Assembly: GCA_030667985.1 (NCBI GenBank) | Contig: DAOUUU010000012.1 | Coordinates: forward strand, 1-32,365 | Direction of reading: 5' to 3' | DNA length: 32,365 nt | Source of the DNA: Candidatus Krumholzibacteriota bacterium | GTDB lineage: Bacteria; Krumholzibacteriota; Krumholzibacteriia; Krumholzibacteriales; Krumholzibacteriaceae | Shown: piece by piece, positions 2,620 to 18,917 of the stretch | Numbering within the stretch: position 1 is the stretch's first letter | How the letters are laid out: each line of letters opens with the position of its first letter | Program-made: the position numbers and the translations under genes | Notes under the pieces: model-generated | Told to the model about the DNA's origin: nothing | What the model saw: the letters and a program-made list of their open reading frames with translations, nothing else | Database searches by the model: none

Positions 2620-3065
2620 GCCGGTTCCTTCGTCTTGCTCTGGAGTCTGATATCGCCGATCGTCATCTCCTTGTCGACCGCCTTACACATATCGTAGATC
2701 GTAAGCGCCGCGACCGAGACAGCCGTAAGCGCTTCCATCTCGACGCCGGTCCTAGCCGTGGCTACAGCTTCAGCGCGTATATCGATCCTGTTCTCCTCGA
2801 TATCGAAATCAACGCTCACGCGGTCGAGCGGCAGCGGATGGCACAGGGGAATCAGATCACCGGTCCTTTTCGCCGCCATGATACCTGCCATGCGGGCCGT
2901 GGCGAGCGGGTCGCCCTTTTTGATGAGCCCATCTGTGATCATCTCGGCCGTCTCGGCTTTAAGATGGACGGCGCCCGTGGCAACGGCGATCCTCTTTACG
3001 ACAGGCTTGCCCGATACATCTACCATCTTCACACTACCCGATTCGTCGATATGCGAAAATTTCAT
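2616..3065 (-). CDS. moaC: Cyclic pyranopterin monophosphate synthase MoaC
   Basis: MoaC converts the 3',8-cyclo-GTP product of MoaA to cyclic pyranopterin monophosphate, the first stable intermediate of molybdopterin synthesis. Family motifs are all visible: LIPLCHPLPL at residues 71-80, TGVEMEALTAVS at 106-117 and IYDMCKAVDK at 123-132, with D125 and K128 matching the catalytic Asp/Lys pair. The length is 149 residues, close to the usual 160. The ATG at 3065 has a GGAGG site just upstream. The longer frame to 3140 reads into the moaA coding sequence and is rejected. The gene lies 4 bases after moaA, so the two are co-transcribed. Confidence 0.96.
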   Translation of the reverse strand: MKFSHIDESGSVKMVDVSGKPVVKRIAVATGAVHLKAETAEMITDGLIKKGDPLATARMAGIMAAKRTGDLIPLCHPLPLDRVSVDFDIEENRIDIRAEAVATARTGVEMEALTAVSVAALTIYDMCKAVDKEMTIGDIRLQSKTKEPA

Positions 3066-3069
3066 TTTC

Positions 3070-3888: not shown

Positions 3889-3968
3889 ATCTCACTCCAT
3901 ATCTTCGATTAACGCATTTTTGTTTATATCATAATCTGTGCGAGTCTCATTCGACCGTGCACGTTTTA
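3889..3968. other. Intergenic gap between moeA and moaA
   Basis: These 80 bases separate the moeA stop from the moaA start, both genes being on the minus strand. This is one of the few gaps in the block. It is AT-rich near 3918-3945 and, read on the minus strand, holds TATAAA-like and TATGAT-like hexamers. There is no convincing -35 partner. A promoter for the moaA group could sit here, but read-through from moeA is equally possible. I see no hairpin terminator and no Moco-riboswitch-like structure. Confidence 0.3.
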
Positions 3969-5162
3969 CTAATCCGCTACCCGTGTCTCCCTCGTAAGTG
4001 TCACAGCTACATTCTCGCCCGCTTTGATCTCACTCGTACCGACCGGCACGGCGATGAAGCCGTCGGCGAGCGTGTATGCGTGTATATGAGCGGATCCGTG
4101 ATACTCGATCGCTCTCGCTTTGCCATCCTTGTCGAAACGGACGGGAATGTGGGCGATCCGGTCCGACTTTCGCCTCGCCACCGGCTCGGACAGGCGAGCC
4201 GTGACCGTGACGGTTCCACCCTCCGATCCCATGAGCCTGTAGCAGAAAGGGCGGACGAGGAGCTCGAAGACGACAAAGACAGAGACCGGATTTCCCGGCA
4301 GGCCGAAGACAAATGTATCGCCCCGCCGGCCGAAGACGGTCGGCTTGCCCGGCTTCATGGCGACCTTCTCGAATAGAAGATCGAAGCCCTTATCCTCGAG
4401 AACAGCCGGCACATGATCGAACTCCCCCATCGACACGCCGCCTGAGAGGAGAAAGATATCGACCCGATCCATTTCCTCCTCGATGACAGCCCCGATCGCC
4501 TCGGGCGAATCCTCCACGATACCAAGCGGTACGGGCACGCACGCGGCACGTGCGACCTGGCTCTGAAGCTGTGAGCTGTTGCTGTCCCGTATCTGCGCCG
4601 CCGATGGTTTCTTGGAAGGCGAGAGAAGCTCGCTCCCTGTAGTGATAATCCCGATTCTGGGCCTTATAGCCACCGGCACTTCGGCGCATCCGACCGCCGC
4701 TAAGACCGCGACTTCGGCGGGGGTGATAATGGTCCCCTTACGCAGCACGACATCGCCGGTTTCAACATCTTCAGCCTGATAGCAGATATTGAGCACACTC
4801 GATTTCTTTGTGATGACGACCCGCCCGTCACGGATCTCGGTATGTTCGATCATCACAACGCAGTCGGCCCCCTCCGGCACGACTCCGCCCGTCATGATCT
4901 TTGCACATTGGCCCCCGGCAATCTTCTCAGAAGGCGTCCGCCCCGCTGGAATCGTTTCGATGATCTCGAGCGCCAACCCGAGATCTGCCTTTCTGCAGGC
5001 GTATCCGTCCATCGCCGATTTATCGAAGGGGGGCATATCGATATCGGAGACGATATCTTCTGCAAGCACTCTCCCACACGTCTGATCAAGGGAAGCTGTC
5101 TCGCCGCCGAGATATAGGACCGAATCCATGACGATGCGACGGGCATCCTCGAACGGTATCAT
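3969..5162 (-). CDS. moeA: Molybdopterin molybdenumtransferase MoeA
   Basis: MoeA inserts molybdate or tungstate into adenylylated molybdopterin. Visible motifs are MPPFDKSAMDGYA at residues 43-55, the catalytic-domain SGGVSMGEFDHV at 240-251, and GLPGNPVSVFVVFE at 287-300. The four-domain length of about 397 residues is normal. Two ATG codons are possible: 5171, which abuts a GAAGGGGG run, and 5162, which sits about 9 bases from it. I prefer 5162. It starts 2 bases after mobB ends, so the pair is co-translated. In an organism with Wtp uptake and AOR, MoeA may handle tungsten; the sequence does not decide the metal. There is no extra C-terminal substrate-binding domain. Confidence 0.95.
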   Translation of the reverse strand: MIPFEDARRIVMDSVLYLGGETASLDQTCGRVLAEDIVSDIDMPPFDKSAMDGYACRKADLGLALEIIETIPAGRTPSEKIAGGQCAKIMTGGVVPEGADCVVMIEHTEIRDGRVVITKKSSVLNICYQAEDVETGDVVLRKGTIITPAEVAVLAAVGCAEVPVAIRPRIGIITTGSELLSPSKKPSAAQIRDSNSSQLQSQVARAACVPVPLGIVEDSPEAIGAVIEEEMDRVDIFLLSGGVSMGEFDHVPAVLEDKGFDLLFEKVAMKPGKPTVFGRRGDTFVFGLPGNPVSVFVVFELLVRPFCYRLMGSEGGTVTVTARLSEPVARRKSDRIAHIPVRFDKDGKARAIEYHGSAHIHAYTLADGFIAVPVGTSEIKAGENVAVTLTRETRVAD

Positions 5163-5164
5163 AC

Positions 5165-5599
5165 TCAGCATCCCCCTTCAGGAACGGCGCCGGCTAATAG
5201 AATGATCTCCACGACAGTCTTTTCATCGATCTCGAGATCGTGCATGAGCTGCGCGATCGTGCAGCGGCCGACTCGTTCCCCCCGGATGATGTCCGCGTTC
5301 TTGGACAGGCCGACGGCCGACAGCTTTGGCTCGCCGCCGGGGAGATAGATCGCACAGTCGGGCTTTATCTCTTTCAAGATACTGTTGCTCTCTATAACGA
5401 GAAAACCGGCATCGTGATTCTCGTCCGCGATTACGTAATAGGGCGTACCGACATGGTAGAAAACGTTCCCCACATCCTCTTTCTCTGTCCCATGACCGAT
5501 CTTTACATGGACCGCACCAGGGAGCAGCCGGCAGAGCCGTTCCGCGAGCTTTGTCTTGCCCACATTCGAATGAGCGCCAGATATGGCTATTGTCTTCAT
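5165..5599 (-). CDS. mobB: MobB-like P-loop GTPase
   Basis: The 144-residue protein begins with a nucleotide-binding P-loop, GAHSNVGKT, at residues 8-16, and continues with the HVKIGHG segment typical of MobB, the GTP-binding adaptor in molybdopterin guanine dinucleotide synthesis. It is slightly shorter than E. coli MobB (about 170). No mobA is present in the window, and AOR-type enzymes use a non-guanylated bis-pterin, so its role here is unclear. It may chaperone cofactor or serve enzymes encoded elsewhere. It lies between the 62-residue gene and moeA on the same strand. Family membership rests on the P-loop and context. Confidence 0.75.
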   Translation of the reverse strand: MKTIAISGAHSNVGKTKLAERLCRLLPGAVHVKIGHGTEKEDVGNVFYHVGTPYYVIADENHDAGFLVIESNSILKEIKPDCAIYLPGGEPKLSAVGLSKNADIIRGERVGRCTIAQLMHDLEIDEKTVVEIILLAGAVPEGGC

Positions 5600-5623: not shown

Positions 5624-5812
5624 CTAGAAGCACCCCAGCTGGCAGCTGATTAGCTTGATACCGTTCTGGCTGCACAATTCACCGATCTCCCTGAGCGGAA
5701 CCTCGTACTTCTTCGCGATCTCGAAGGCCTCCACGCAGGGAAGCTTCTTCGTATCGTCTATCTCGATCGCCGTTTCCTCGATGACCTTTAACAGTTCTTC
5801 AGCGTTCATCAT
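5624..5812 (-). CDS. Small conserved-looking protein ending CQLGCF, unknown function
   Basis: I do not recognise a characterised family. The 62-residue product starts at an ATG preceded by GGAGG at 6 bases spacing and overlaps the end of modE by 14 bases, which makes it a real coupled gene. It reads as two or three helices followed by IGELCSQNGIKLISCQLGCF. There are Cys residues at C26, C47, C57 and C61, the last two spaced CX3C at the extreme C-terminus. The AFEIAKKYEVPLREIGELC stretch resembles a short helix-turn-helix. The context between modE and mobB suggests a role in metal or cofactor handling, or as a partner of the one-domain ModE. That role is inference only. Confidence 0.7.
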   Translation of the reverse strand: MMNAEELLKVIEETAIEIDDTKKLPCVEAFEIAKKYEVPLREIGELCSQNGIKLISCQLGCF

Positions 5813-6161
5813 CTATACCTCCAATGATTGGTTTCAAATACTCTTCGAATGCTTCATTCATGCACGAACTAACCTCGCTCCGGAACTTCTCCCAGGCGTC
5901 GAGTAACTGCACTCCGAATTCGGTCAGCTCGGTCGCTCCGCCCGACGAGCCGCCCCTCGTCTTCCTCACGATCGCGCGGCCGAAAGCTTCCTCGGCGCTC
6001 TTGATATCGCCCCAGGCCTTGCGGTAACCCCTGCCGAGCTCTCTCGCAGCCTCCTGTATCGAACCGTGCTCTCTCACCGCCATGAGCAGGCGCCACTTTC
6101 CGTCCCCGAAGAGACCCTCGTCCTCATCGGACAGGAGATAGAGCTTAGCGTGAGGTTCCAT
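5799..6161 (-). CDS. modE: One-domain ModE-type transcriptional regulator
   Basis: ModE regulates molybdate uptake and molybdoenzyme genes. The 120-residue protein contains only the winged helix-turn-helix half. LLMAVREHGSIQEAARELG spans about residues 25-43 and the RGGSSGGATELTEFG wing spans 69-83, both hallmarks of ModE. The molybdate-binding TOBE domains of the 262-residue E. coli protein are absent, so oxyanion sensing must come from a partner or not occur. The start ATG has a GGAGG 9 bases upstream. It lies 3 bases after wtpC. A ModE-like operator occurs in front of wtpA (see 9090-9113), suggesting autoregulation of the operon. Confidence 0.88.
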   Translation of the reverse strand: MEPHAKLYLLSDEDEGLFGDGKWRLLMAVREHGSIQEAARELGRGYRKAWGDIKSAEEAFGRAIVRKTRGGSSGGATELTEFGVQLLDAWEKFRSEVSSCMNEAFEEYLKPIIGGIDDER

Positions 6162-6164
6162 GTC

Positions 6165-7211
6165 TCATGCCTCCACAAAGCGCACGGCGCTCGCCTTTAT
6201 GCTCGTCCAGACCCTCTTGCCGCACTCGAGACCCAGGCCCTCGGCCGACTCCTTTGTGACCAGGGCCGCGATCTCGACTCCAATATCGACGATAACCTCG
6301 ATACCGAGACGCACGGGAAAAATATCGGTAATAACTCCGGCGAACACGTTACGCGCACTCGTCCGCGACGGCTCGAGCGATATAATGACATCCTCGCTCC
6401 GTATGATGATGTAACCCTCGCCCTCCTTCGCGTCGGTCAGGATGGAGAGTACGAGCCCCGAGAAACGAAACTCAGCATCGCCGCCCGCTATGAGTACACC
6501 GGGGAAAAAGTTCCTTATTCCTATGAAACGTGCCACGAATTCGGAGGCGGGGCGGCGGAATATCTCATCAGGCGGCCCGGTCTGGACAACCGTTCCCCTC
6601 TCCATGACGCCGATACGGGTCGCGAGAGCGATCGCCTCTTCGTAATCATGCGTCACGTGCACCATCGTTAACCCGCTCCGGTTCAATCTCCTGAGTAGCG
6701 CCCTCATGCCCGACCGCGCGCTGACATCAAGCGAAGATAGCGGTTCGTCGAGGAGCAGGCACTTAGGCTCTGTCACGAGAGCTCTCGCCAGCGCCACGCG
6801 CTGGGCCTCACCCCCGCTCAGGGTCCCGGGCCTGCGTTCCAGGAATGATGTGATCTCGAGATCGCGGGCGATCTCTTCGGTCTGCTTATAAGTGCGGCCG
6901 CGCCCGGCGCCCCTGCTCCGGAGGCCGTAGGCGATGTTCTTTCTGACTGTCATGTGCGGAAAGAGCGCTTGATCCTGAAAGACGAGCCCGATATTTCTGT
7001 TCTGTATCGGTTCTTGCGTGATCTCCCTGCCGTCGAACAGGATCCTCCCTGCGTCGGGAAAAGTAATGCCGGTAATCGTCTCCAGGAGGATCGTCTTGCC
7101 GACGCCCGAGGCTCCAAGAAGGACAAAGTAGTCTCCCCGTCCGACATCAAAGCTGACGTCTCTGACGGCGAAATCACCCAGCTTTTTGGAAAGGCCCTCA
7201 ACCTTCAGCAT
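6165..7211 (-). CDS. wtpC: Tungstate/molybdate ABC transporter ATP-binding protein
   Basis: This cytoplasmic ATPase powers oxyanion import. Motifs in order are Walker A GASGVGKT (33-40), Q-loop FQDQALFPHMTV (78-89), signature LSGGEAQRVALARAL (131-145), Walker B CLLLDEP (151-157) and the switch His in MVHVTHDYEEA. About 60 C-terminal residues match the TOBE-type oxyanion-binding domain found on ModC/WtpC. I chose the ATG at 7211, directly after a GGGGGGAGG site. The frame to 7247 would begin inside wtpB without a better site. It overlaps wtpB by 14 bases. ModC versus WtpC is assigned from the neighbouring binding protein. Confidence 0.93.
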   Translation of the reverse strand: MLKVEGLSKKLGDFAVRDVSFDVGRGDYFVLLGASGVGKTILLETITGITFPDAGRILFDGREITQEPIQNRNIGLVFQDQALFPHMTVRKNIAYGLRSRGAGRGRTYKQTEEIARDLEITSFLERRPGTLSGGEAQRVALARALVTEPKCLLLDEPLSSLDVSARSGMRALLRRLNRSGLTMVHVTHDYEEAIALATRIGVMERGTVVQTGPPDEIFRRPASEFVARFIGIRNFFPGVLIAGGDAEFRFSGLVLSILTDAKEGEGYIIIRSEDVIISLEPSRTSARNVFAGVITDIFPVRLGIEVIVDIGVEIAALVTKESAEGLGLECGKRVWTSIKASAVRFVEA

Positions 7212-7992
7212 GACGCCTCCCCCCTGCCACGACCCTGAGGACGACAAAGAAGGCGAGACAGACCCCGATAAAGAGAACAGCCACGGGCCGCGCGTACTTG
7301 AGCCCGAAGGCGCCGAAGCGCTCGTAGATCAGGACCGGCGTGATCATCGGGTGGTAGGCAACAACGAGAACCGCCCCGAACTCGCTCATCCCCCTCGCCC
7401 ACATCAGAATCGATCCGGACAGGATAGACCGCCACGCCATCGGCACAGAGATCGTCAGGAAGACCCTGAGCGGCGAGGCGCCGAGGTTCAGCGCCGCCTT
7501 CTCGAGCTGCTCCGGCACTGCGGCGAAGCCGTCGCGGGCCGCGTTTATAAGAAAAGGTACGCTGACAAAGGCCATCGCCGCCATGATCCCTGCATATCCG
7601 CCGACGAAGCGCACACCCACACGTTCCCCCAGGTCGCCGATCAGAGTGCCCCGCGAGATAATCCCGAGAAGCGCTATCCCGGCGGCCGAATGGGGGATCA
7701 CGATCGGCAGGTCAATGATCCCGTTCACGAGCTGCTTCAGGGGAAACCGCTTCCTTGCGAGGATATAGGCGAACGGCACCGATACCACAGCGAAGATGAG
7801 CGTCGCCCCCATCGATGCGAGCAGTGTGAGCCGCACGCTTCCCGCAACCTCCGGGTCTCGCGCGGTCTCTGCAAGCTGCCCACCAGTGGTACTGAGAAGC
7901 ATGCCGAGAAGAGGCGCAACGATAAAGAGGAGCACGAGCCCTCCGAGCCCCATGAATATCAGATGCACAGGTTCAAATCTTTTCCTGGTCAT
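7198..7992 (-). CDS. wtpB: Tungstate/molybdate ABC transporter permease
   Basis: This 264-residue inner-membrane permease has five to six hydrophobic segments, beginning at about residue 10 with LIFMGLGGLVLLFIVAPLLG. The family EAA-like loop ALNLGASPLRVFLTISVP is followed by RGMSEFGAVLVVAYHPMITP, typical of ModB/WtpB. It sits 6 bases after wtpA and overlaps wtpC, so it forms the channel of one transporter. The ATG at 7992 has only a weak ribosome site, which fits translational coupling to wtpA. Confidence 0.92.
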   Translation of the reverse strand: MTRKRFEPVHLIFMGLGGLVLLFIVAPLLGMLLSTTGGQLAETARDPEVAGSVRLTLLASMGATLIFAVVSVPFAYILARKRFPLKQLVNGIIDLPIVIPHSAAGIALLGIISRGTLIGDLGERVGVRFVGGYAGIMAAMAFVSVPFLINAARDGFAAVPEQLEKAALNLGASPLRVFLTISVPMAWRSILSGSILMWARGMSEFGAVLVVAYHPMITPVLIYERFGAFGLKYARPVAVLFIGVCLAFFVVLRVVAGGRRHAEG

Positions 7993-7998
7993 GATAGA

Positions 7999-8973
7999 TC
8001 AACTCACCGGACCGGGTGGAAGGGCGAAGCCTTTGAGCTCGTCGGGGAGCTTATCGTACGTGTCCGTCGGTGAAGGCACAAGCGGCGGCTGCCCGTTCCG
8101 CTCCATAATAGTAAGACCCTTATCGACGTCCAGCAGAAACCGGACGAACTCGAGCGCGAGCGAAGGATCGGGGGCGTTCTTCGGGATCGTGACGCCGTAG
8201 ACCATCGGCGCGCCGCGTTTTGTGATCGTGGTTCCAGGCTCCCTGCCAGATATCTCGACCGATACCGCCTTGTACACCTTCGCAAATTCAGGGCTCTTCA
8301 GGTTTATCTCGTCCGGAAGGAGTAGATAATCGAGTCCATGCTGCTGCGCCACGGACCGGTATAAAAAGATGAAGTCTATCGTGCCGGTCTCCAGCAGTGC
8401 CAAGAGATCGGTCTCCTTGGGACGGATATACTCGGTGTCCTTTTCGAGAAGCTGTGCGCTAAGACCCTCCATGCCGTAATACATCCCCGCCAGCTTCATC
8501 GCGAGTACCGCCCTGTAGCCGCACGGGTCGGAGTCGGGGTCCGACCTGCCGAAGGCGACACCGTCCCGGAGCAGAAGCTCGTGCCAGTTTTCGACATTTA
8601 TCTCGTCAGAGCCCCGCGACTTGTCATGGTAGACGATCGCCATCTCGTTGCCGGCGAACCTGATATTCCAATCGGCATGCTCGGGGATCAAAAGCTCGTC
8701 GATCACCGTGTAGTCGGCCGAAGCCATCACATCGCACCACCTGTCGAGGTCCGCGATCTTGCGTGCGCACGCCCGGCTTCCCGCCGCCTCGAGAAGAACA
8801 CGGACACCGGAATGTTCCTTCTCGAACTCATCGGCGATCTGCCTAAGCGGCACTGCCAGGCTTCCCGCGTGAAAGATCACCAGCTCCCGAGACCCGGACC
8901 GCTCGCCTTCTGTCGAACAGGAAGCTAACATCATGGCTGCTATCGTCATCAATGCTAAAGAGAGTTTATTCAA
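7999..8973 (-). CDS. wtpA: Tungstate/molybdate-binding lipoprotein WtpA
   Basis: This is the extracytoplasmic oxyanion-binding component. The sequence FHAGSLAVPL (34-43), EAAGSRACARKIADL (62-76) and CDVMASADYTVID (80-92) is the WtpA/ModA type-II pattern seen in archaeal and bacterial high-affinity tungstate binders. I place the start at the TTG at 8973, because a GAGGTG site sits about 6 bases upstream and the protein then has a compact lipoprotein signal ending LASC (C19). A GTG at 8982 is the alternative and adds three residues. It is the first gene of the operon and diverges from the AOR genes. Tungstate preference is inferred from the WtpA-like motif and the AOR neighbour. Confidence 0.93.
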   Translation of the reverse strand: MNKLSLALMTIAAMMLASCSTEGERSGSRELVIFHAGSLAVPLRQIADEFEKEHSGVRVLLEAAGSRACARKIADLDRWCDVMASADYTVIDELLIPEHADWNIRFAGNEMAIVYHDKSRGSDEINVENWHELLLRDGVAFGRSDPDSDPCGYRAVLAMKLAGMYYGMEGLSAQLLEKDTEYIRPKETDLLALLETGTIDFIFLYRSVAQQHGLDYLLLPDEINLKSPEFAKVYKAVSVEISGREPGTTITKRGAPMVYGVTIPKNAPDPSLALEFVRFLLDVDKGLTIMERNGQPPLVPSPTDTYDKLPDELKGFALPPGPVS

Positions 8974-9082
8974 GGACTTCACCTCAATACTATCGAGAGC
9001 CTTTTCATGGCTTCAACCCGTGTCGATGATGATTCCTGCCTTTAACGCACCATATGCTAATGGAAATCGGAATAAGGCCGCG

Positions 9083-9198: not shown

Positions 9199-12100
9199 AT
9201 GGCGGAAAAACTCATAAAAAAGATGAAGGATGCCCACGAGACACTCTGCGAATTCCCCTTCGAGGTAATCGAATTGGAAAAGGGTTACGCGAGAAGGTGG
9301 CTCAGGGTAGACCTCGACAAGAACGAGATCGGTATCCACCCGGTCTCACAGGAGATGATAGACCTCTGGACGGGTGGCAAGGGATTCGACCTCTGGCTCA
9401 CCTTCCAGGAGATCGACAAGGAGACGAGATGGGACAGCCCGAACAACCCGATCTGCTTCTCCTCGGGACCGCTCGGCGGCACTACTTCATTTCCCGGCTC
9501 GGGCAAAACGCTCGTAACCGCCATCTCCCCCCTCACAGATTCGATGATGGACTGCAACGTGGGCGGCTACTTCGGCCCCTACCTGAAATTCGCGGGACTC
9601 GATGCGCTGATGGTGACGGGAAAGGCGAAGGAGGATGTCATAGTCCTGATCGACGCGGTCGCCGGCAAGGTCACGATCGAAAAGGCCCCTCTTGAAAGCG
9701 TCGACTCTCATCTTCTCTCCGAGGAGCTGACCGAGATGTACGCGGACAACGAGCTCGACCGCAGGAACATCGCCTGCGTCTCGGCGGGCCGTGGAGCGGA
9801 GCACACCCGCATGGGAGTCCTGAACTTCTCCTTCTATGACTGGCGGCGAGACTTTCCCAGGATCAAGCAGGCGGGGCGGGGCGGCATCGGAACCGTCTTC
9901 AGGAACAAGAAGATCAAGGCCGTGATCGCGAAGAACCGTCAGATCACCCCCGCCTGGCGCATCGCCGAAAACAAGGTCGCAGAGCTTACAACCCCCAAGA
10001 AGATCTCTGTCCAGACATGCAAGAGCGAGATCGACACGATCCACGAGATCATCGAGAAGTGGAACAGCGATCCTGAATATGTCATCGAGATGATGCAGGA
10101 CATACAGGAACGCTACCGCCACATATCAAAGACCGCGATAGATGAGATCTGCAAGAAGACCGGCCGGCAGAAAGCCCATCTCTATCACATCGCCACCTTC
10201 TACAAGGCATTCAGCCTCGAGCCGCGCGGAGAAACGACCATCCAGGTCTGCCTCGGAACTGCCTGTCACGTCAAGGGCGGATCCCGAATCCTCGATTCCT
10301 TCGAGCGCGTGCTAGGGATAGAGACGGGCCAGACTACAGGGGACAACAAGTACACACTCGAGGCGGTCGCCTGCCTCGGCGCCTGCAGCATCGCGCCTGT
10401 CGTTAAGATCGGCGAAGAGGTCTTCGGCAACGTCAAGGCGAAGGATGTCGAAAAGCTCCTGAAAGAAGCGGCCAAGGCGGAGAAACCCGACGCCAAGAAG
10501 GATGAAAAGACCGCGAAGGCAGCCGGAAAGAAGAAAAAGAAGATCGATCTTGATAAAATCGCAGCGGCCGAAAAGAAATCGGCTGCCGGCTACAAGAAGA
10601 TGCTTATGGTCTGCACCGGCACCGGCTGCGTATCGGCGAAGGGTTTTGTCATCCGCGACCGCCTGATAAAGGTGCTCGAGGAACGCAAACTCGACAAGGA
10701 TTTTCTAGTCGTCGGCACTGGGTGCAACGGCTTCTGCGCAATGGGGCCGATAATAGTCACGCAGCCGGACGGCACCTTCTACCAGAAAGTGAAAGAGAAG
10801 GATATCACAGAGATCGTCGACGCGCTCGTCGAAGGAAAAGTCGTTGAGCGGCTTCTGCATACCGATCCCGTCTCGGGCGCGGTGAACGAGAAAATGGAAG
10901 AGATCGCCTTCTTCAGCAAGCAGCAGCTGATAGCGCTCAGGAACAAGGGCCTGATAGATCCGGAGAATATCGATCACTACATCGCGCGCGGCGGCTATCA
11001 ATCATTGAAAAAGATCTTGGCAAACACCGAGCCAGAAGGGGTCATACAGGAGGTGATCGCTTCGGGCATCAGGGGACGCGGTGGAGGAGGATTCCCCGCG
11101 GGTGTCAAGTGGAAGTCCGGCCTCGAGGCTGCCCGTGAGCGCGAGGAGGAGATCTATGTCGTCTGCAACGCCGACGAGGGAGACCCGGGTGCCTTCATGG
11201 ACCGGAGCATCATCGAGACAGACCCCCACTCGGTAATCGAGGGGATGGTGATAGGCTCCTACGCCGTGGGCGCCGCCCAAGGATACATCTACATCAGAAA
11301 GGAGTACCCGCTCGCCATGGTGCGGCTGGAGAAAGCGATCGCTCAGGCGAGAGAGTACGGCCTGCTCGGTGATGATATACTCGACAGCGGGCACAGCTTC
11401 GACATACACATACATCGGGGCGCCGGCGCCTTCGTATGCGGGGAGTCGAGTGCTCTGATGATATCGATGGCGGGAAAACCGGGCGAACCGCGCGCAAAGT
11501 ATGTGCACAGCGTCGAGTACGGCTACCGGGACAAACCGACCGTGCTGAACAACGTAGAGACCTGGGCAAACATACCGGCGATCATGGAAAAGGGGGCGAA
11601 ATGGTTCGCCTCAATCGGCTCGGGAGATGTGAGCGACAACCCGTGGGGCGGATCGAGCGGGACCAAGGTGTTCTCTCTGGTCGGCAATATCCGGAATACT
11701 GGACTCGTCGAGGTCCCGATGGGGATCACGCTGAGAGAGATCATCGAGGAGGTGGGCGGCGGCATACCGGACGGACGCGAGTTCAAGGCGGTCCAGACGG
11801 GCGGCCCAAGCGGCGGATGCCTGCCCGCTAACAAGCTCGACATGCCGGTCGACTTCGACTCCCTGACAGAGGCAGGCTCTATGATGGGCTCGGGTGGCAT
11901 GATCGTGATGAACGACCGCGCTTGCATGGTCGATGTAGCGAAATACTTCGTCGATTTTCTAATGGACGAATCATGCGGCAAGTGTACACCCTGCCGCGAG
12001 GGGCTTCACCTGATGCACAACATACTCTCTGACATCTGTGAAGGCCGCGGCGAGGAAGGAGATATCGAAAAACTGGAGGAGCTGTGCGGCACAATCAAGG

Positions 12101-12405
12101 AGATGAGCCTATGCCAACTCGGAGGCTCCGCACCCAATCCGGTTCTCAGCACGATCAACTATTTCCGCGAGGAGTATGAACAGCATATAAAGGAGAAACG
12201 ATGCGTTGCGGGGGTGTGCAAAACACTCATTGAATACCGCATCGACGATGACAAGTGCACAGGCTGCACGCTGTGCGCCAAGAACTGTCCGGCCGAATGC
12301 ATCTCGGGCGAGCCGAAAAAAATCTACACTATCGACGGCACAAAATGCATAAAGTGCGGGATCTGTTACGAAGTCTGCAAATTCGACGCAGTGGAGGTGA
12401 TATAA
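9199..12405 (+). CDS. AOR domain 1 fused to NuoE and NuoF: NAD(H)-linked diaphorase subunit of a split AOR complex
   Basis: This 1068-residue fusion has several modules. Residues about 25-250 are AOR N-terminal domain 1: KGYARRWLRVDL (28-39), WTGGKGF (57-63), SPLTDSMMDCNVGGYFGPY (110-128) and AGRGGIGTVFRNKKIKAV (225-242), the base of the tungstopterin pocket. Residues 280-425 are NuoE with a [2Fe-2S] site (C351, C356, C392, C396). A Lys/Ala-rich linker (425-467) follows. Residues 468-1000 are NuoF: an N-terminal [2Fe-2S] domain (C472, C477, C509, C513), the FMN/NADH site GRGGGGFPAGVKW (626-638), and a [4Fe-4S] site (C926, C929, C932, C972). H996, C1002 and C1007 resemble the HydB zinc region. 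The tail is a 2x[4Fe-4S] ferredoxin (C1020-C1060). The ATG at 9199 follows AGAAGGAG; the in-frame ATG at 9166 lacks one. No AOR domain 2 or 3 is present here. The next gene supplies them and overlaps by one base. Confidence 0.93.
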   Translation: MAEKLIKKMKDAHETLCEFPFEVIELEKGYARRWLRVDLDKNEIGIHPVSQEMIDLWTGGKGFDLWLTFQEIDKETRWDSPNNPICFSSGPLGGTTSFPGSGKTLVTAISPLTDSMMDCNVGGYFGPYLKFAGLDALMVTGKAKEDVIVLIDAVAGKVTIEKAPLESVDSHLLSEELTEMYADNELDRRNIACVSAGRGAEHTRMGVLNFSFYDWRRDFPRIKQAGRGGIGTVFRNKKIKAVIAKNRQITPAWRIAENKVAELTTPKKISVQTCKSEIDTIHEIIEKWNSDPEYVIEMMQDIQERYRHISKTAIDEICKKTGRQKAHLYHIATFYKAFSLEPRGETTIQVCLGTACHVKGGSRILDSFERVLGIETGQTTGDNKYTLEAVACLGACSIAPVVKIGEEVFGNVKAKDVEKLLKEAAKAEKPDAKKDEKTAKAAGKKKKKIDLDKIAAAEKKSAAGYKKMLMVCTGTGCVSAKGFVIRDRLIKVLEERKLDKDFLVVGTGCNGFCAMGPIIVTQPDGTFYQKVKEKDITEIVDALVEGKVVERLLHTDPVSGAVNEKMEEIAFFSKQQLIALRNKGLIDPENIDHYIARGGYQSLKKILANTEPEGVIQEVIASGIRGRGGGGFPAGVKWKSGLEAAREREEEIYVVCNADEGDPGAFMDRSIIETDPHSVIEGMVIGSYAVGAAQGYIYIRKEYPLAMVRLEKAIAQAREYGLLGDDILDSGHSFDIHIHRGAGAFVCGESSALMISMAGKPGEPRAKYVHSVEYGYRDKPTVLNNVETWANIPAIMEKGAKWFASIGSGDVSDNPWGGSSGTKVFSLVGNIRNTGLVEVPMGITLREIIEEVGGGIPDGREFKAVQTGGPSGGCLPANKLDMPVDFDSLTEAGSMMGSGGMIVMNDRACMVDVAKYFVDFLMDESCGKCTPCREGLHLMHNILSDICEGRGEEGDIEKLEELCGTIKEMSLCQLGGSAPNPVLSTINYFREEYEQHIKEKRCVAGVCKTLIEYRIDDDKCTGCTLCAKNCPAECISGEPKKIYTIDGTKCIKCGICYEVCKFDAVEVI

Positions 12406-14402
12406 TGGCTACGGAAAAGATCACGATCACGATAGACGGCAAGGAAGTTTCAGTAGTCAAGGGCTCCTACCTTCTCGGCGTCCTCCGCGACAACGGAGTC
12501 CATGTCCCCACCCTCTGCTTCCACAAGGACCTCACGCCTCAAGGGCTCTGCAGGCTCTGCACGGTCGAGATCGAGCAGCGGGGCAGAAAGAAACTTGTTA
12601 CATCCTGCAACTTCCCGGTCCGCGGAGAGATAAAGGTGGAGACCGCTTCGGAGCGGGTAAAGGCTCACCGCAAGCGGCTCGCCGAGATGTATCTTGGCCG
12701 CTGGCCGGAGGTGCCCACGATCCAGGCGATCGCAAAGCTCTGCGGCGCGACCGACAGGGAGAAGTACAGGAGCGAGCTGACCGACGAGAATCCCAAGGCA
12801 TGTATCCTCTGCGGTCACTGCGTGCTCGCATGCGACGAGTTCGTCATGGAGCGCATCCTCGATTTCGCCGGCCGCGGCATCAAGAGGCATCTGACGATGC
12901 CGTTCGGCGAGGTGGATCCCCACTGTATCGGCTGCACCTCCTGCGCATACGTCTGTCCCACCGGAGCAATCGAGATCGTGGACGACATGAACCATCCGGT
13001 CGACCCGCAGCTCATACGCGAATACGGCATGAAGATCAACGCTGAGATGGCGACGCTGGACAAATCACAGTGCCGGATGCGCGAAGTCGGCACGGCGAAT
13101 ATCGTCGACGTCATGGACGCCTACGACCTCCTTCCAGTCCATAACTACCAGTACGGGGCGCACGAGGACACGCCGAAGATCAACTCGGTAACGCTCAAAC
13201 AGGACTACTTCACACAGGATCACCCTGACGGATGCTGGAAGGGATGTTCGATGGCCTGCGCCAAGACGGTCGACGGCTTCGAGATCAAGACCGGCCCCTA
13301 CAAAGGCCAGATCGTTACGGTCGACGGGCCGGAGTACGAGACGGCAGCCGCCTGTGCCAACATGGGTTGTTTCGACGGCGATTTCGTCGTCGAGTTCAAC
13401 TTCTATTGCGACACATACGGGATCGACACGATCTCGATGGGCACCTGCACGGCCTTTGTCATGGAATGCTACGAGAACGGCATCATCACGAAAGAGCATA
13501 CGGGCGGCAAGGAACTGAAGTTCGGCGCGACCGCCGAGGTACTCGAGTGCCTCCACGAGGCGGCGCTGGGCAAAGGTTTCGGCGTCGAGGTCGGACAGGG
13601 GATACGCAGGCTCAAAGAAAAATGGGCCAAGGAGCTCGGCGCGGATCCAGATTTCCTGAAGGATATCGGGATGGAAGCGAAGGGGCTCGAGTACAGCGAG
13701 TACATGTGCAAGGAATCACTCGCGCAGCAGGCCGGGTACACACTGGCGGTGAAGGGACCGCAGCACGACGAGGCATGGCTCATCTTCATGGATATGGTCA
13801 ACAACCAGATCCCCTCCTTCGAGGACAAGGCCGAGGCGCTCTACTACTATCCTCTCTGGAGAACATGGTTCGGACTCCACGGCCTCTGCAAGCTGCTCTG
13901 GAACGATGTGGTGCCGCTCAGCAACAAGAACTTCAAGCCGCAGGAGGCGGCCAAGGTCCCCGAGCATGTCGAGGACTTCTTCAAGTTCCACGAGGGGATG
14001 ACCGGCATTCCGCTCGACGAGGAGAGCATGCTGGCCCAGTCGGCACGAGTGCATAACCTCCAGCGCGTCATGTCGCGCATGTTCGGTTTCGGCACGAGAA
14101 AAAACGACATACCCCCCTACCGGGCGGTCGGTCCCGTGACAAAGGCCGAGTACGAATCCAGGGCCGAGCGGTATGACAAACAGATGAATGAAATCATCGG
14201 TATCGATCCCGAGGGAAAGAACATAGAGGAAAAGATAAAGATCCTCCGCGAGTACCGGATGGAACAGTACAACAAGGTCGTGGACTCCGCCTATCTGCGC
14301 CGCGGATGGACGAGTAACGGCGTCCCGAAGATAGAGCGGCTGAAAGAACTCGGTATCGATCTTCCCGAGCTCGTCGAAATCGTAAAGGACGATCAGGAGT
14401 GA
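12405..14402 (+). CDS. NuoG/HydA-type ferredoxin head fused to AOR domains 2-3: catalytic subunit of a split AOR complex
   Basis: The 665-residue protein starts at an ATG sharing one base with the upstream stop (TAATG); the longer frame to 12255 lies inside the previous gene. Residues 1-80 are a NuoG-type [2Fe-2S] domain (C38, C49, C52, C68). The His/Cys cluster motif that usually follows is missing. Two [4Fe-4S] sites come next (C133, C136, C139, C143 and C174, C177, C180, C184). From about 205 the protein is AOR domains 2 and 3: GTANIVDVMD, LLPVHNYQYG, the cluster CX3CX3C at C277, C281 and C285 with a distant C494 (LHGLCKL), GPEYETAAACANMG (308-321) and YGIDTISMGT (338-347). AOR domain 1 is absent. 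The usual KG-E-P-DPRG segment is replaced by VKGPQHDEAW (449-458), so the substrate may differ from simple aldehydes. It probably forms a heteromer with the upstream gene product. Confidence 0.93.
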   Translation: MATEKITITIDGKEVSVVKGSYLLGVLRDNGVHVPTLCFHKDLTPQGLCRLCTVEIEQRGRKKLVTSCNFPVRGEIKVETASERVKAHRKRLAEMYLGRWPEVPTIQAIAKLCGATDREKYRSELTDENPKACILCGHCVLACDEFVMERILDFAGRGIKRHLTMPFGEVDPHCIGCTSCAYVCPTGAIEIVDDMNHPVDPQLIREYGMKINAEMATLDKSQCRMREVGTANIVDVMDAYDLLPVHNYQYGAHEDTPKINSVTLKQDYFTQDHPDGCWKGCSMACAKTVDGFEIKTGPYKGQIVTVDGPEYETAAACANMGCFDGDFVVEFNFYCDTYGIDTISMGTCTAFVMECYENGIITKEHTGGKELKFGATAEVLECLHEAALGKGFGVEVGQGIRRLKEKWAKELGADPDFLKDIGMEAKGLEYSEYMCKESLAQQAGYTLAVKGPQHDEAWLIFMDMVNNQIPSFEDKAEALYYYPLWRTWFGLHGLCKLLWNDVVPLSNKNFKPQEAAKVPEHVEDFFKFHEGMTGIPLDEESMLAQSARVHNLQRVMSRMFGFGTRKNDIPPYRAVGPVTKAEYESRAERYDKQMNEIIGIDPEGKNIEEKIKILREYRMEQYNKVVDSAYLRRGWTSNGVPKIERLKELGIDLPELVEIVKDDQE

Positions 14403-14404
14403 CG

Positions 14405-15016
14405 ATGGATTCCATCTTTGACCGAAACGTCCCCGGCACGACCGAGAAGCTCGCCGTCGCCACGGTCGGCATCGCCGGCTGCGGGGGCCTCGGTTCCAAC
14501 GCGGCGGTAGCGCTCACCAGGGCCGGCGTCGGGCGGCTCATCCTGGTCGACCACGACCGTGTGGAGTCATCGAACCTGAACCGACAGCACTATTTCCAGT
14601 CCGACATCGGGAAGGCGAAGGTCGAGGCCCTTGGCCGTCACTTAAAAGCGATCAATCCCGCCATCGCGCTCGAGCTGCACGATATCGAGCTGAAGCCTGA
14701 TGAGGCGGAGAAGATCTTTGCAGGCGCCGATATCCTGATAGAGGCTTTCGACCGGGCCGAGAACAAGCGCTGGCTCATCGAGACCTGGTGCAAGGCCTTC
14801 CCCGAAAGACACATCGTCTGCGGCAGCGGCCTCTCGGGCTGCGGGGCTACCGATAAGCTCAAGATCCATTCTGCCGGATACATCCACTTCTGCGGAGACG
14901 AGGAGACAGATATGAGCCTCGGGCTCTGCGCGGCACGTGTAGGGATAGTCGCCAACATGCAGGCCAATGTGGCAATCGAGATATTGACCATAGCCGCGGA
15001 TGCGAAAAAAGACTGA
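14405..15016 (+). CDS. Short ThiF/HesA/MoeB-family adenylyltransferase
   Basis: These enzymes adenylate the C-terminal glycine of ubiquitin-like sulfur carriers such as MoaD or ThiS. The 203-residue protein has the nucleotide-binding GCGGLGSN (25-32), LVDHDRVESSNLNRQ (47-61) and DIGKAKVE (67-74) patterns. It is a short version without the MoeB zinc CXXC pairs or a rhodanese domain. It resembles the roughly 200-residue ThiF-family type found beside AOR and thiamine genes. The ATG at 14405 has AGGAG at 5 bases spacing; a GTG at 14399 would overlap the AOR stop. With the sulfur carrier next door it most likely serves pterin dithiolene sulfur insertion. A thiamine role cannot be excluded. Confidence 0.88.
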   Translation: MDSIFDRNVPGTTEKLAVATVGIAGCGGLGSNAAVALTRAGVGRLILVDHDRVESSNLNRQHYFQSDIGKAKVEALGRHLKAINPAIALELHDIELKPDEAEKIFAGADILIEAFDRAENKRWLIETWCKAFPERHIVCGSGLSGCGATDKLKIHSAGYIHFCGDEETDMSLGLCAARVGIVANMQANVAIEILTIAADAKKD

Positions 15017-15043: not shown

Positions 15044-15244
15044 GTGATCACGATCAACAACAGAGACAAGATCGAGTGGAGAGATGGAATGACGGTGCAG
15101 GTCCTGCTCGACGATATGGGATACAGCTACACACTGATCACGGTAACGGTAGACGGCCGACTCGTCTCCGAGGAAGAGTACGATTCCTTTGTCATAGACG
15201 ACGGCGCCAGCGTCGGCGTCTTCCACCTCGCCCACGGCGGCTGA
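15044..15244 (+). CDS. MoaD/ThiS-family sulfur carrier protein
   Basis: The product is about 66 residues and ends in the diagnostic Gly-Gly (AHGG), the site of adenylation and thiocarboxylation. It begins MITINNRDKIEW, like ThiS/MoaD beta-grasp proteins, and contains GMTVQVLLDDMGY. I chose the GTG at 15044 because a GAAAGAAG stretch lies upstream and the family N-terminus aligns; a TTG at 15029 is the alternative. It sits 27 bases after its likely activating enzyme. In this setting it probably donates sulfur to the AOR pterin, although no moaE is in the window. MoaD versus ThiS cannot be settled by sequence alone. Confidence 0.85.
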   Translation: MITINNRDKIEWRDGMTVQVLLDDMGYSYTLITVTVDGRLVSEEEYDSFVIDDGASVGVFHLAHGG

Positions 15245-15482: not shown

Positions 15483-16376
15483 ATGAGCAAAGAGCTGATG
15501 ACGACCAGAGAGGTCGCCAAGTACCTTAAACTCAACGAAAAGAAGGTCTACGCGCTGGCGAAGGGCGGGGATATGCCCTGCACGAAGGTGACAGGCAAAT
15601 GGCTCTTCCCGAAGGAGCACATCGATTCCTGGATAGAAAAAAGCGTCCATCCCGCCTCGATGCCGGAAGAGTTCGAACATATCAAAATCGTCGGAAGCCA
15701 CGACCCGGCGATCGATCTCCTCGCATCTGAGGTGAACGGCCGATTTCCGCGCATCACACTACTCGCGGCCCACATAGGCAGCCTCGGAGGACTGGAGGCG
15801 CTTGCCCGCGGCGAGGCTCATATCAGCGGCATACACCTGCTCGATCCAGAAACGAACGATTACAATCTCAGCTACGTAAAAAAAGTTGCAGCTGGTCTGA
15901 ACCCTGTCGTCGTCCACTTCCTCGACCGTGAACAGGGCCTGATGACGCAGCCGGGCAATGCCCTCCAGATAGAGGGAATCAAGGATCTCACAAGACAGGG
16001 AGTACGCTTCATAAACAGGCAGAAGGGCTCTGGAACGAGGATACTCCTCGATTTCAACCTCGAGAGGCTGGGTATTGCTCCGGACGGGATAACAGGCTAC
16101 GACGATTGCGCATCGACTCACACGGAAGTCGCCACGGCAATAAGGAGCGGCAGCGCCAACGCCGGCCTCGGTCTGCGCACGGCGGCTGTCAGTGCCAATC
16201 TGGATTTCATTTCAATAACAAAAGAACGGTACGACCTCGTCATACCGAGGACATACTTCTATACGGAACCGGTACAGAAGTGTTTAGAGGTTGTCCGCTC
16301 CAAGCACTTCATGGAAAGGGTGGAACGCCTGGGCGGATACGATACGACCGATTCAGGCACTGTGCTCGTATGGTAA
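15483..16376 (+). CDS. Excisionase-type HTH fused to a periplasmic-binding-like (PBP) sensor domain
   Basis: Residues 5-53 are an excisionase/MerR-like DNA-binding domain (MTTREVAKYLKLNEKKVYAL, then KWLFPKEHIDSWIEK). Residues about 65-297 are the PBP-like domain also found at the C-terminus of archaeal MoeA and in molybdate-linked regulators. Its hallmark FINRQKGSGTRILLD is at 177-191, followed by GYDDCASTHTEVATAI and SGSANAGLGL. There is no signal peptide, so it is a cytoplasmic one-component regulator that probably senses molybdate, tungstate or a cofactor product. A GGGAGG lies about 12 bases before the ATG at 15483; an in-frame ATG at 15498 is possible. Position after the AOR operon suggests it controls that operon or the downstream genes. 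Ligand and targets are inferred. Confidence 0.85.
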   Translation: MSKELMTTREVAKYLKLNEKKVYALAKGGDMPCTKVTGKWLFPKEHIDSWIEKSVHPASMPEEFEHIKIVGSHDPAIDLLASEVNGRFPRITLLAAHIGSLGGLEALARGEAHISGIHLLDPETNDYNLSYVKKVAAGLNPVVVHFLDREQGLMTQPGNALQIEGIKDLTRQGVRFINRQKGSGTRILLDFNLERLGIAPDGITGYDDCASTHTEVATAIRSGSANAGLGLRTAAVSANLDFISITKERYDLVIPRTYFYTEPVQKCLEVVRSKHFMERVERLGGYDTTDSGTVLVW

Positions 16377-16428: not shown

Positions 16429-17676
16429 ATGCGTAACGATCACTTCACATTCACCTGGAAACATGCGGCGCTCACGATCCTGATATCTGCCGCGGGTGCG
16501 GCCATCGGCATCGGCTGCTCGGACGACACGAGCACGAATCCGACCGAGATCATCTCTTCCAGATCTTACCAGGGTCACGCGACTGACGCGGACATCAACA
16601 GCTTCGTCAAGACCTACCCCCATACGGTCGGAACCAGACTCGACGACTGTCAGACCTGCCACAAGGGTGGAGCGGTGAATGACGGCGAAGGCGATGTGTG
16701 GGCCAACGCCTGTGATTACTGCCACTATGTGATCCATCCCCCCGCCGGCTGGTCCGGACTGCCGGAGAGCTTCGAGGAGACATTGAATCCCTACGGGGCG
16801 GCATACAACGACGCGGGAAGGAACGCAGGCGGCCTGGATGATATTGCGGGCCTCGACAGCGATAACGACGGTTACACCAACACGGAGGAGATATCGGAGC
16901 TTCGCTACCCGGGCGATGACGGAAGCTACCCCGGTCTCGACATCTGCCCGATGATCACGTTGACCATGGCGGAACTCAAAGCGATGCCGCCCCACACACA
17001 GTTCGGGCTCGCCAACACAACGAAGCAGCAGTTCGACTTCTACGCGACCTACACCGGGGTTAAAATCGTGGACATACTCGCGGAGAAAGGCATCGATCTC
17101 ACGGGCGCGACCAGCATCGATATACTGGCACCGGACGGGTACGCAAAATCCTTCACCCTCGCACAGATCACCGAACAGTATCCCGATCACAGATTCTTCT
17201 CCGGTTTCGGCGTCGAGGATCTCGGGACCGACTGCGCCTTCGTCGAGTACCCAGACGAGACCTACGGTCTAGCGTACGGGGAATGGATAGGCGAGGAGCT
17301 TGGCCACGAACAGTGGCACATCTTAGCCTACGAACGCGAAGGACTGCCAATCGAGGAATCCTATCTCGATCCTGTGACAGGAAGGATCGAAGGGGAAGGC
17401 CCGTTCAGAAACGTCATCCCCCCCGGCTCTCCTGATGACGATCTCAACACGCCCGACCGGGGAAAAAATGCCGAGACGAGCGGCTGCATGTTGCCTGAGT
17501 GGAATTACGACTACGAGAAGGATCACAACGCAAGCAGCATGGTGAAAGGAACCGTCATCATCCGCATCAATCCAATGCCGGAAGGTTGCGAGGAGTTCGA
17601 TATCATAAACGGTGGATGGGCAATGATCGACGCGGCGGTCATACTTATCTACGGACATAATGTGACGGGAGAGTGA
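16429..17676 (+). CDS. Exported two-CXXCH lipoprotein of unknown family, possible redox partner
   Basis: The 415-residue protein has an N-terminal hydrophobic segment ending AIGIGC (C30), probably a lipoprotein signal although the -3 residue is not canonical. Two haem-binding motifs follow: CQTCH (74-78) and CDYCH (95-99). Next is a calcium-loop-like DSDNDGYTNTEE (143-154), as in thrombospondin type-3 repeats. The rest begins ITLTMAELKAMPPHT (176-190) and includes a GV-IVDIL segment and IEGEGPFRNVIPP (320-332). This recalls the extracytoplasmic pterin-oxidoreductase-like fold, but I cannot name a family. An AAGGAG site sits 4 bases before the ATG. It lies 52 bases after the regulator and may share its transcript. 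A periplasmic electron-transfer role is inference. Confidence 0.75.
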   Translation: MRNDHFTFTWKHAALTILISAAGAAIGIGCSDDTSTNPTEIISSRSYQGHATDADINSFVKTYPHTVGTRLDDCQTCHKGGAVNDGEGDVWANACDYCHYVIHPPAGWSGLPESFEETLNPYGAAYNDAGRNAGGLDDIAGLDSDNDGYTNTEEISELRYPGDDGSYPGLDICPMITLTMAELKAMPPHTQFGLANTTKQQFDFYATYTGVKIVDILAEKGIDLTGATSIDILAPDGYAKSFTLAQITEQYPDHRFFSGFGVEDLGTDCAFVEYPDETYGLAYGEWIGEELGHEQWHILAYEREGLPIEESYLDPVTGRIEGEGPFRNVIPPGSPDDDLNTPDRGKNAETSGCMLPEWNYDYEKDHNASSMVKGTVIIRINPMPEGCEEFDIINGGWAMIDAAVILIYGHNVTGE

Positions 17677-17753
17677 TACGGTTGCAGCCCCTTGCTCCGA
17701 AAGCATGTTCATTACGATAAAGTCACTCCACTCACTTGGAACGGCCGTCCTTC

Positions 17754-18917
17754 ATGCCTAGAAACATTGCCATTATTCTCTCTATCCTCGTCCTGACCGG
17801 CTTCGTCACGCCCGCCGCGGCGGATTCTCCAAGGATAGGCATCGAGGTAAACTCGAGCTTCTGGGTCACGATCTACGAGGAGGTGGAGAACGGGCTCGTT
17901 CAGCCTGGAAGCGGCGACGCCGCCGCCGATCACGCCTCCGGCTTCAACTTCAAGCTCGGGCGGATCGCACTAACCTTCGAATCTCCCGACCGGAAGATAG
18001 AGGCGCTAGTCAGGCTGCGCCTCGAGGAGCGGACGGACGTAATTTCCTTCTGGGGCGCCTATCACGCAGCTCCCTGGCTCGGGGCGTATATCGGGCAGAT
18101 GAAGATCCCATCGACCGCCGAGGTTCTCGCCCCCGATCACCTGATCGACTTCCTGTCGAGAACTACATTCGGCCGCAATGTCGGCGACTTCTCGCTCTCG
18201 AGAACCCCCTACATCTCTTCGATCATGTCGGCAAAATCGTACGACCGAGATCTGGGAATCGCGCTAAAAGGCAGGTTTCCTCTCGGCGAGATACCCTTCG
18301 CGCGATACTTCATCATGGTAAGCAACGGCATCGGCGCGAACAGGTACATAGGCGGCGATACTAGCGAGGAATTCATCTACACCAACAGCTTCGGCGATTT
18401 TTACTACGGCGCCAGGCTTGAGATCGCCCCCTCCCCCATAATCGCGCTCGGAACCCATCTCAGCATGAACAAGCACGACAATATGACCCTCGGAGACAGA
18501 GGGCCCGTCTACGACATCGACCGCCGCGTCTGGACCGCCGACTCGAGGATCGAGCTTCCGACCGGACTGCGCCTCGAGGGATTCTACGGAGTGGGCTCTA
18601 TGGACGATTTTCTCGAATCCCAGAATTACAGGTTCGATTACAGTGGGTGGGGCATATGGGCGGTTCAGCCTCTGCTTGATGGGATGTTCGAGCTCTGCTT
18701 CCGGTACGACACCTTCACCCATGAATACAACAATGACGGAAACGACACTAGCCAGAACGACTTGACAGCGGGAATCAACTACCGCCCCTCCGAGTATCTG
18801 AGGCTGCAGCTAAACTACGCCTTTAAACAAACCATGAATGAATACGAGGAAGACCTCTCCGACAACATCCTCTACTTGAACGCGCAGTTCATTTTCGATG
18901 CCTTCTTGATGGAGTAA
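17754..18917 (+). CDS. Outer-membrane porin, phosphate-selective (OprO/P)-like
   Basis: The protein is about 387 residues with a signal peptide (LSILVLTGFVTPAAADS). The mature part is full of alternating hydrophobic/polar beta-strands and aromatic girdle residues, for example VSFWGAYHAAPWLGAYIGQM and YRLQLNYAFKQTM-type strands. It ends in a strand with a terminal hydrophobic pattern (NAQFIFDAFLME). This is the OprO/P-like 16-strand barrel pattern. I chose the ATG at 17754; the upstream TTG at 17736 is not better supported. The 77-base gap before it shows only a poor promoter with 15-base spacing. It may import an anion used by the neighbouring system, such as tungstate; that is speculation. 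Confidence 0.75.
   Translation: MPRNIAIILSILVLTGFVTPAAADSPRIGIEVNSSFWVTIYEEVENGLVQPGSGDAAADHASGFNFKLGRIALTFESPDRKIEALVRLRLEERTDVISFWGAYHAAPWLGAYIGQMKIPSTAEVLAPDHLIDFLSRTTFGRNVGDFSLSRTPYISSIMSAKSYDRDLGIALKGRFPLGEIPFARYFIMVSNGIGANRYIGGDTSEEFIYTNSFGDFYYGARLEIAPSPIIALGTHLSMNKHDNMTLGDRGPVYDIDRRVWTADSRIELPTGLRLEGFYGVGSMDDFLESQNYRFDYSGWGIWAVQPLLDGMFELCFRYDTFTHEYNNDGNDTSQNDLTAGINYRPSEYLRLQLNYAFKQTMNEYEEDLSDNILYLNAQFIFDAFLME

Follow-up and report, generated by a model that had tools for sequence, protein, structure and literature searches.

A tungsten aldehyde oxidoreductase apparently divided between two polypeptides and joined to a bifurcating-type electron-transfer module

Can the catalytic unit of a tungsten aldehyde oxidoreductase (AOR) be assembled from two polypeptides? 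The question is raised by two adjoining genes of a Candidatus Krumholzibacteriota bacterium, found in a stretch of 32,365 nucleotides (NCBI GenBank assembly GCA_030667985.1, contig DAOUUU010000012.1, positions 1 to 32,365) that was analysed as a whole and is called the window here. An earlier note on this DNA had described the piece 9199-14402 as an AOR that is cut between domains 1 and 2 and fused to diaphorase modules. Both genes lie in this piece, and the 5' edge of the second was refined to 12405. We propose, with a probability of about 0.78, that the products of genes 1 and 2 form one tungsten AOR complex, bifurcating or linked to nicotinamide adenine dinucleotide (NAD), in which the catalytic unit, equivalent to the WorL subunit of tungsten oxidoreductases (WORs), is spread over two polypeptides and the pterin pocket closes at the subunit interface. 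The position of the pocket is deduced by analogy with AOR structures, and tungsten and an aldehyde are the probable metal and substrate of the window enzyme.

Gene 1 (9199-12405, forward strand, 1068 aa), as judged from its open reading frame, Pfam and NCBIfam profiles, PDB sequence matches, and Foldseek, consists of AOR domain 1, a NuoE/BfuC domain, and a BfuB-type NuoF diaphorase. It starts with the ATG at 9199, preceded by GAGAAGGAG. Gene 2 (12405-14402, forward strand, 665 aa), whose ATG shares one base with the TAA of gene 1, consists of a NuoG/WorA-like ferredoxin head and AOR domains 2-3; its residues are counted here from 12402 and are thus numbered one higher than from the ATG. In Pfam searches, AFOR_N (PF02730/IPR013983) matched residues 33-245 of gene 1 (9295-9933; E = 1.9e-46, profile positions 2-197 of 199), ahead of NuoE and NuoF, and AFOR_C (PF01314/IPR001203) matched residues 209-652 of gene 2 (13026-14357; E = 1.1e-86, profile positions 3-385 of 385), behind Fer2_4 and Fer4. 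The window therefore has both the N-terminal AOR domain and the C-terminal domains 2-3 of the AOR/WOR family, and because the two profiles are covered almost end to end on separate chains, the two parts add up to one complete AOR. The domain search proposed in the earlier note thus found AFOR_N, AFOR_C, NuoE, NuoF, and the ferredoxin head in the arrangement that it had claimed.

An alignment with 30 single-chain sister AORs located the cut. Gene 1 matches the single-chain enzymes as far as the linker between domains 1 and 2 (...KKIKAVIAKNRQITP), and gene 2 picks up at the following residues (DDMNHPVDP..., compared with DLNHPV... in the single chain). The cut falls in this linker, and no residue of the AOR fold is missing or doubled, in agreement with the claim of one whole enzyme cut at its natural domain boundary. 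Family searches of the host genome revealed no second AFOR_N or AFOR_C match in the assembly (2.5 Mb, 93.5% complete), which rules out a second complete AOR elsewhere in it and upholds the prediction that no separate complete partner would be found. An origin of the halves from two unrelated AORs was also ruled out, since the N-domain and C-domain trees both place the split rows beside the same single-chain clade.

The modules between the two AOR halves make up an electron-transfer unit. The NuoE/BfuC domain of gene 1 (10039-10467, residues 281-423, Pfam) has all the BfuC-type [2Fe-2S] cysteines (C351, C356, C392, and C396). The BfuB part begins with a thioredoxin-like [2Fe-2S] domain (10594-10878; C472, C477, C509, and C513) and continues with the NuoF domain (10960-12189, residues 588-997, with the Pfam match at 621-996), in which the motifs of the flavin mononucleotide (FMN)/NADH site, GRGGGGFP and CNADEGDPGAF, are unbroken and the [4Fe-4S] cysteines are C926, C929, C932, and C972; two [4Fe-4S] ferredoxin motifs (C1020-C1060) occupy the C-terminal stretch (12238-12399). 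Residues 464-1065 matched Acetobacterium HydB (E = 3e-222) as well as NiFe-HydB and the WorB of 9mqx, the cluster cysteines of gene 1 all aligned with those of 7q4v_B and 9mqx_B, and the best Foldseek match of its AlphaFold model was 9mqx_B (E = 3e-60). The ferredoxin head of gene 2 (12414-12974) contains a [2Fe-2S] motif (C39, C50, C53, and C69) and two [4Fe-4S] motifs (C134-C144 and C175-C185), which are invariant in 22 sequences. Its nearest solved chain by sequence was 9mqx_A (WorA, E = 4e-34), while the AlphaFold model of gene 2 as a whole had 9mqx_D (WorL) as the best Foldseek match, with 9mqx_A also among the matches. Hence, the diaphorase modules named in the earlier note are present as NuoE and NuoF, though the latter is not a bare NuoF but one of the HydB/BfuB type, and the module is of the bifurcating BfuABC/WorABC type rather than a generic one. 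The WorABC module of Class IV WORs, which are encoded in the operon order WorCBASL (PMC13328260), is present, and BfuB with its FMN site and extra clusters is recognizable at the level of cysteines and motifs. According to a survey of Bfu enzymes, these extra clusters are missing from non-bifurcating homologues (PMC9304861). Because the window has their cysteines, its electron module is of the bifurcating type, and electron bifurcation by the enzyme itself is predicted from these motifs.

The same gene pair was sought in other genomes, a survey that had been suggested at the outset, by scanning GTDB contigs with gene 2. Two types of relatives were obtained: those matching over the whole length, and those matching only from residue 195 onward with approximately 60% identity, which have the AOR as one chain of about 720 aa. 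In total, 41 loci carry both AOR halves on separate chains. Judging by record titles, their hosts belong to about a dozen phyla (among them Krumholzibacteriota, Acidobacteriota/Aminicenantes, Eiseniibacteriota, Sumerlaeota, Cloacimonadota, Myxococcota, Bdellovibrionota, Bacillota, Fermentibacterota, Elusimicrobiota, and Coatesiibacteriota) and include one archaeon, a member of Thermoplasmatota. Wherever NuoE and NuoF are present, the order of domain 1 (AORN), NuoE, NuoF, and ferredoxin head followed by domains 2-3 (AORC) is constant, although it is distributed over four genes in L040, L045, L049, and L050, over three in L007, L015-L017, L022, L023, L030, L032, L034, L047, and L051, and over two in the window and some other loci. 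Gene 2 was found in 15 of the 69 Krumholzibacteriota genomes with a completeness of at least 80%. The AOR split is widespread and old.

Some loci depart from this layout. In a Coatesbacteria locus (L043, 7177-9974), the AORN gene adjoins the gene for the ferredoxin head and AORC, no NuoE or NuoF was found in the 18 kb of the locus, and a phosphoglucomutase gene comes after the pair; either secondary loss or a stage before arrival of the NuoE-NuoF genes would account for it. The gene 1 relative in L036 (3261-4820) is only 520 aa long, with mere fragments of NuoE/NuoF behind AOR domain 1. Loci L023 and L024 from one study have an identical layout and were binned as Clostridia and as Dojkabacteria, respectively, probably by misbinning. 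In L006 (7968-9992) and L091, the gene 2 relative is broken by one in-frame TAA about 79 codons in, reflecting either a sequencing error or a pseudogene.

To judge whether the split enzyme is functional, we checked 15 pterin, catalytic, and cluster positions, 5 of them encoded by gene 1 and the other 10 by gene 2. The PfAOR positions R76, N93, G95, R182, and R186 correspond to K103, N120, G122, K223, and R227 of gene 1; gene 2 was checked at T243, C288, C291, C295, E313, D338, Y427, H448, D489, and C494, and its AFOR_C region contains T231, E313, Y434, and H455 together with the cluster ligands C278, C282, C286, and C496. At every position, the residue of the window was found in all 41 split loci. 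R76 and R182 are replaced by lysine and D489 by glycine in all split loci and in all 30 single-chain sisters, and the other 12 positions have the same residue as PfAOR. Apart from T243, E313, Y427, and H448, the roles of the tested positions, and the numbers 338 and 489, are those that we take from the 1aor structure. The PfAOR numbering was placed by alignment and by these four residues, which are named as conserved in aldehyde-oxidising members (PMC13328260); they and the four cluster cysteines are invariant (41/41).

The history of the two halves was also compared with that of the diaphorase. Although AORN and AORC are on different chains, their pairwise distances over 36 loci were strongly correlated (r = 0.88), whereas those of AORN and NuoF, which share an operon and, in the two-gene forms, a chain, were not (r = 0.12). 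Most of this gap arises because some loci have a deleted or broken FMN loop (NADEGDPGAF); in loci with an intact loop, the values were 0.90 and 0.84, and therefore the co-evolution signal alone is modest. The loop is deleted or broken in L008, L011, L012, L013, L018, L019, L022, L027, L028, L033, L039, and L114, and some of these gene 1 relatives also lack the NuoE [2Fe-2S] cluster (L008, L012, L013, and L039) or the thioredoxin-like domain, with unchanged AOR halves. A stronger argument for one unit is how differently the parts decay. Where the loop is lost, mean identity falls from 77% to 53% in NuoF and from 63% to 46% in NuoE, while it goes from 68% to 69% in AORN and from 72% to 73% in AORC. 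Since the tree implies six or more changes in the state of the loop and the AOR halves were kept in these lineages, the halves appear to act as one enzyme.

Several observations weigh against a split AOR of the bifurcating or NAD-linked kind. The AlphaFold models of the single chains are only middling (pLDDT, predicted local distance difference test, of 74 for gene 1 and 72 for gene 2), with the lowest values in the active-site and Fe-S segments; the split loci all come from metagenome-assembled genomes, with no isolate among them according to the record titles; and no WorS-like polyferredoxin was found among the scanned genes around the operon, the rest of the genome not having been searched for WorS. 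The neighbours in the window are cofactor and transport genes only and give no clue to the substrate. When distant AORs serve as the outgroup, the root cannot be placed with certainty, as one branch measures 2.4 changes per column and the outgroup rows are long. In addition, some relatives lack the NADH/FMN site, so that bifurcation linked to NAD is not a feature of the split group as a whole. This last point bears on the reading that the split enzyme is real but does not bifurcate: it would oxidise aldehydes, or reduce acids, with simple coupling to NAD(H), and its additional ferredoxin domains would serve only as conduits. Bifurcation is not readable from sequence alone, and the relatives that lost the FMN loop or other diaphorase parts, in at least six lineages, can use only ferredoxin or another acceptor. 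However, the window keeps the BfuB-specific cysteine motifs (thioredoxin-like [2Fe-2S], KRCxxGVC, and two C-terminal [4Fe-4S]), and such extra clusters set bifurcating enzymes apart from non-bifurcating homologues (PMC9304861); we regard this alternative as unlikely for the window, while giving it real weight.

A chemistry other than aldehyde oxidation, as in the BamB of benzoyl-CoA reductase, is improbable. The lysine and glycine replacements, which run throughout the split and the single-chain sister clades, would suit it, and the family is known to include a non-aldehyde member, BamBC (PMC13328260), but the split loci invariably retain the four residues of the aldehyde-oxidising members cited above. 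It is very unlikely that domain 1 of gene 1 is a relic or a structural spacer outside the catalytic AOR, with gene 2 active on its own or inactive. Separation of the AOR domains and decay of some diaphorase parts could be taken in this sense; nevertheless, the ligand positions of domain 1 are invariant (41 of 41), domain 1 is about as well conserved as domains 2-3, also in loci where the diaphorase fused to it decays, and L043 retains a separate domain-1 gene without NuoE and NuoF. As for an assembly, frameshift, or binning artefact, the metagenomic origin of all loci and the assignment of one layout to two organisms (L023 and L024) would be compatible with one, but the halves are separated by nearly 1,000 open codons of NuoE, NuoF, and NuoG head that are retained across 41 loci from different genomes, the contig of the window is at least 32 kb long, and genomes in few contigs (G020 with 2 and G054 with 4) also have the split. 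The 41 loci lead us to reject this explanation, which has a negligible chance of being correct.

On the reading of one AOR complex from two polypeptides, the enzyme could work as follows. Domain 1, as the N-terminal part of the BfuC-BfuB chain, would cradle the pterins from one side, while domains 2-3, which contribute the catalytic residues and the ligands of the [4Fe-4S] cluster, would lie at the C-terminal end of the ferredoxin chain that resembles BfuA. Assembly of the electron-transfer module would bring domain 1 against domains 2-3 and close the pterin pocket. Electrons from aldehyde oxidation would then pass from tungsten via the AOR [4Fe-4S] cluster and the clusters of the ferredoxin head to BfuC/BfuB and FMN, where bifurcation would deliver them jointly to NAD+ and ferredoxin; alternatively, the flow might be reversed to reduce acids. 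We tentatively suggest, at somewhat less than even odds, that the tungsten site is gated by assembly: with its walls on BfuC and BfuA, the pocket would become active only after closure of the bifurcating module, and in lineages without the NADH/FMN site the old diaphorase would mainly clamp the halves. A natural fission at the pterin pocket offers a direct system for studying insertion of the bis-pterin tungsten cofactor and pocket closure, and it illustrates one way for an enzyme to incorporate a bifurcating electron module. Because the NADH site has decayed repeatedly while the AOR halves stayed intact, the contribution of each electron branch can also be tested.

How the split arose can be outlined from the trees and the gene order. 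In a tree without the distant outgroup, the split and single-chain rows fall on opposite sides of one branch (support 93), and fission of a single chain is the direction favoured by the outgroup state rather than proven. To our knowledge, the other known AOR families are single chains, and because of this and because the inserted order C-B-A is that of WorCBASL, the simplest history would be a BfuCBA cassette inside an AOR gene. The BfuC-BfuB-BfuA (NuoE-NuoF-NuoG head) cassette may have come to lie in the AOR gene at the domain 1/2 linker, after which the genes would have fused step by step.

The surroundings of the operon suggest a tungstopterin cofactor. Upstream of gene 1, on the opposite strand, are a ModE-like regulator and the tungstate ATP-binding cassette transporter WtpC, WtpB, and WtpA (5799-8982, NCBIfam) and the pterin cofactor genes MogA/MoaB, MOSC, MoaC, MoaA, and MoeA (1740-5171). 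Downstream, on the forward strand, are a ThiF/MoeB-like adenylyltransferase (14399-15016) and a ThiS/MoaD-like carrier of 66 aa with GG at its end, which resembles WorX (15044-15244). Of 22 loci from relatives that were inspected, 12 have ThiF downstream of the split operon. MoaD/ThiS genes next to AOR genes are known (PMC1779556), as is WorX (PMC13328260), and WtpABC, MoaA/MoaC/MoeA, and the adjoining ThiF/ThiS make up the genomic context of the putative tungstopterin cofactor. RnfC is present in the host genome, and therefore the ferredoxin and NAD pools are linked. Other genes of the window include a short MoaA (3070-3888, reverse strand, 272 aa), which keeps the C-terminal CxxC...C motif and lacks part of the usual C-terminal domain; a helix-turn-helix protein fused to a PBP-like domain seen at the C-terminus of some MoeA proteins (15483-16376, forward), plausibly a metal- or cofactor-responsive regulator; and a diheme protein with a GEGP motif and, after it, a protein resembling phosphate-selective porins (16429-18917, forward).

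Neighbours of relatives give some leads on the substrate. The archaeal split operon (L047, 11008-14164, Thermoplasmatota) is followed by ThiF, piperidine-6-carboxylate dehydrogenase, and L-glutamate gamma-semialdehyde dehydrogenase. In Clostridia (L054-L078), a sarcosine-oxidase-like DAO, a pyridine-nucleotide oxidoreductase, [2Fe-2S] proteins, and a polyferredoxin lie upstream of the single-chain AOR, and proA/proB lie downstream of it in L056, L060, and L066. These neighbours may point to amino-acid semialdehydes as substrates, though they are too thin a basis to commit to them.

The earlier note knew of no characterised enzyme with such a split, and we likewise found no report of a split AOR or of a Krumholzibacteriota AOR in the open-access literature, subscription papers not being searchable. 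In the solved AOR-family structures that were matched, the catalytic subunit is a single, complete chain. The 2026 WOR classification gathered WorL by requiring both AOR domains in one protein, whereas the window has them on two chains (PMC13328260). A classification made in this way would pass over the split group, and the word 'split' is absent from its text (PMC13328260). Judging from its motifs, the split enzyme would work like a bifurcating WOR, while it falls short of the one-chain definition and has no WorS in its operon.

The closest solved relative of the window is 9mqx, the electron-bifurcating Class IV tungsten oxidoreductase WorABCSL of Acetomicrobium mobile. The two share a BfuABC-type module whose cluster cysteines and FMN motifs agree, a ferredoxin head that in the window is nearest to WorA, an AOR-family catalytic domain, and a MoaD/ThiS-like partner. 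However, WorABCSL has five subunits with WorL in one chain, whereas the window has two subunits, with the counterpart of WorL in two chains that are each fused to an electron-transfer chain. The single-chain sister AORs (about 720 aa; for example, Geosporobacter L060, Alkaliphilus L061, and Lokiarchaeota L052) are approximately 60% identical in domains 2-3 and have the same two lysine and one glycine substitutions and a ThiS neighbour, but they are one chain, and usually adjoin a WorS-like polyferredoxin and lack NuoE/NuoF. AorABC of Aromatoleum aromaticum (8c0z) is an AOR linked to NAD whose electron-transfer proteins are separate; it has the AOR subunit in a single chain, and it presumably has a different NADH-binding subunit and no NuoE/F/G-type module. 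The benzoyl-CoA reductase BamBC/BamIHG combines an AOR-family subunit with WorABC-like subunits (PMC13328260), but BamB is a single chain in a large Hdr-like complex with other chemistry. In the Bfu survey, Wor appears solely under Type 2, with S and L as distinct subunits, and in the Type 1 enzymes (HydABC, Nfn-Bfu, and Fdh-Bfu) the catalytic domain is fused behind the BfuA ferredoxin head (PMC9304861). The window resembles the latter in this fusion and differs in that only half of the catalytic unit is on BfuA and the other half is on BfuC.

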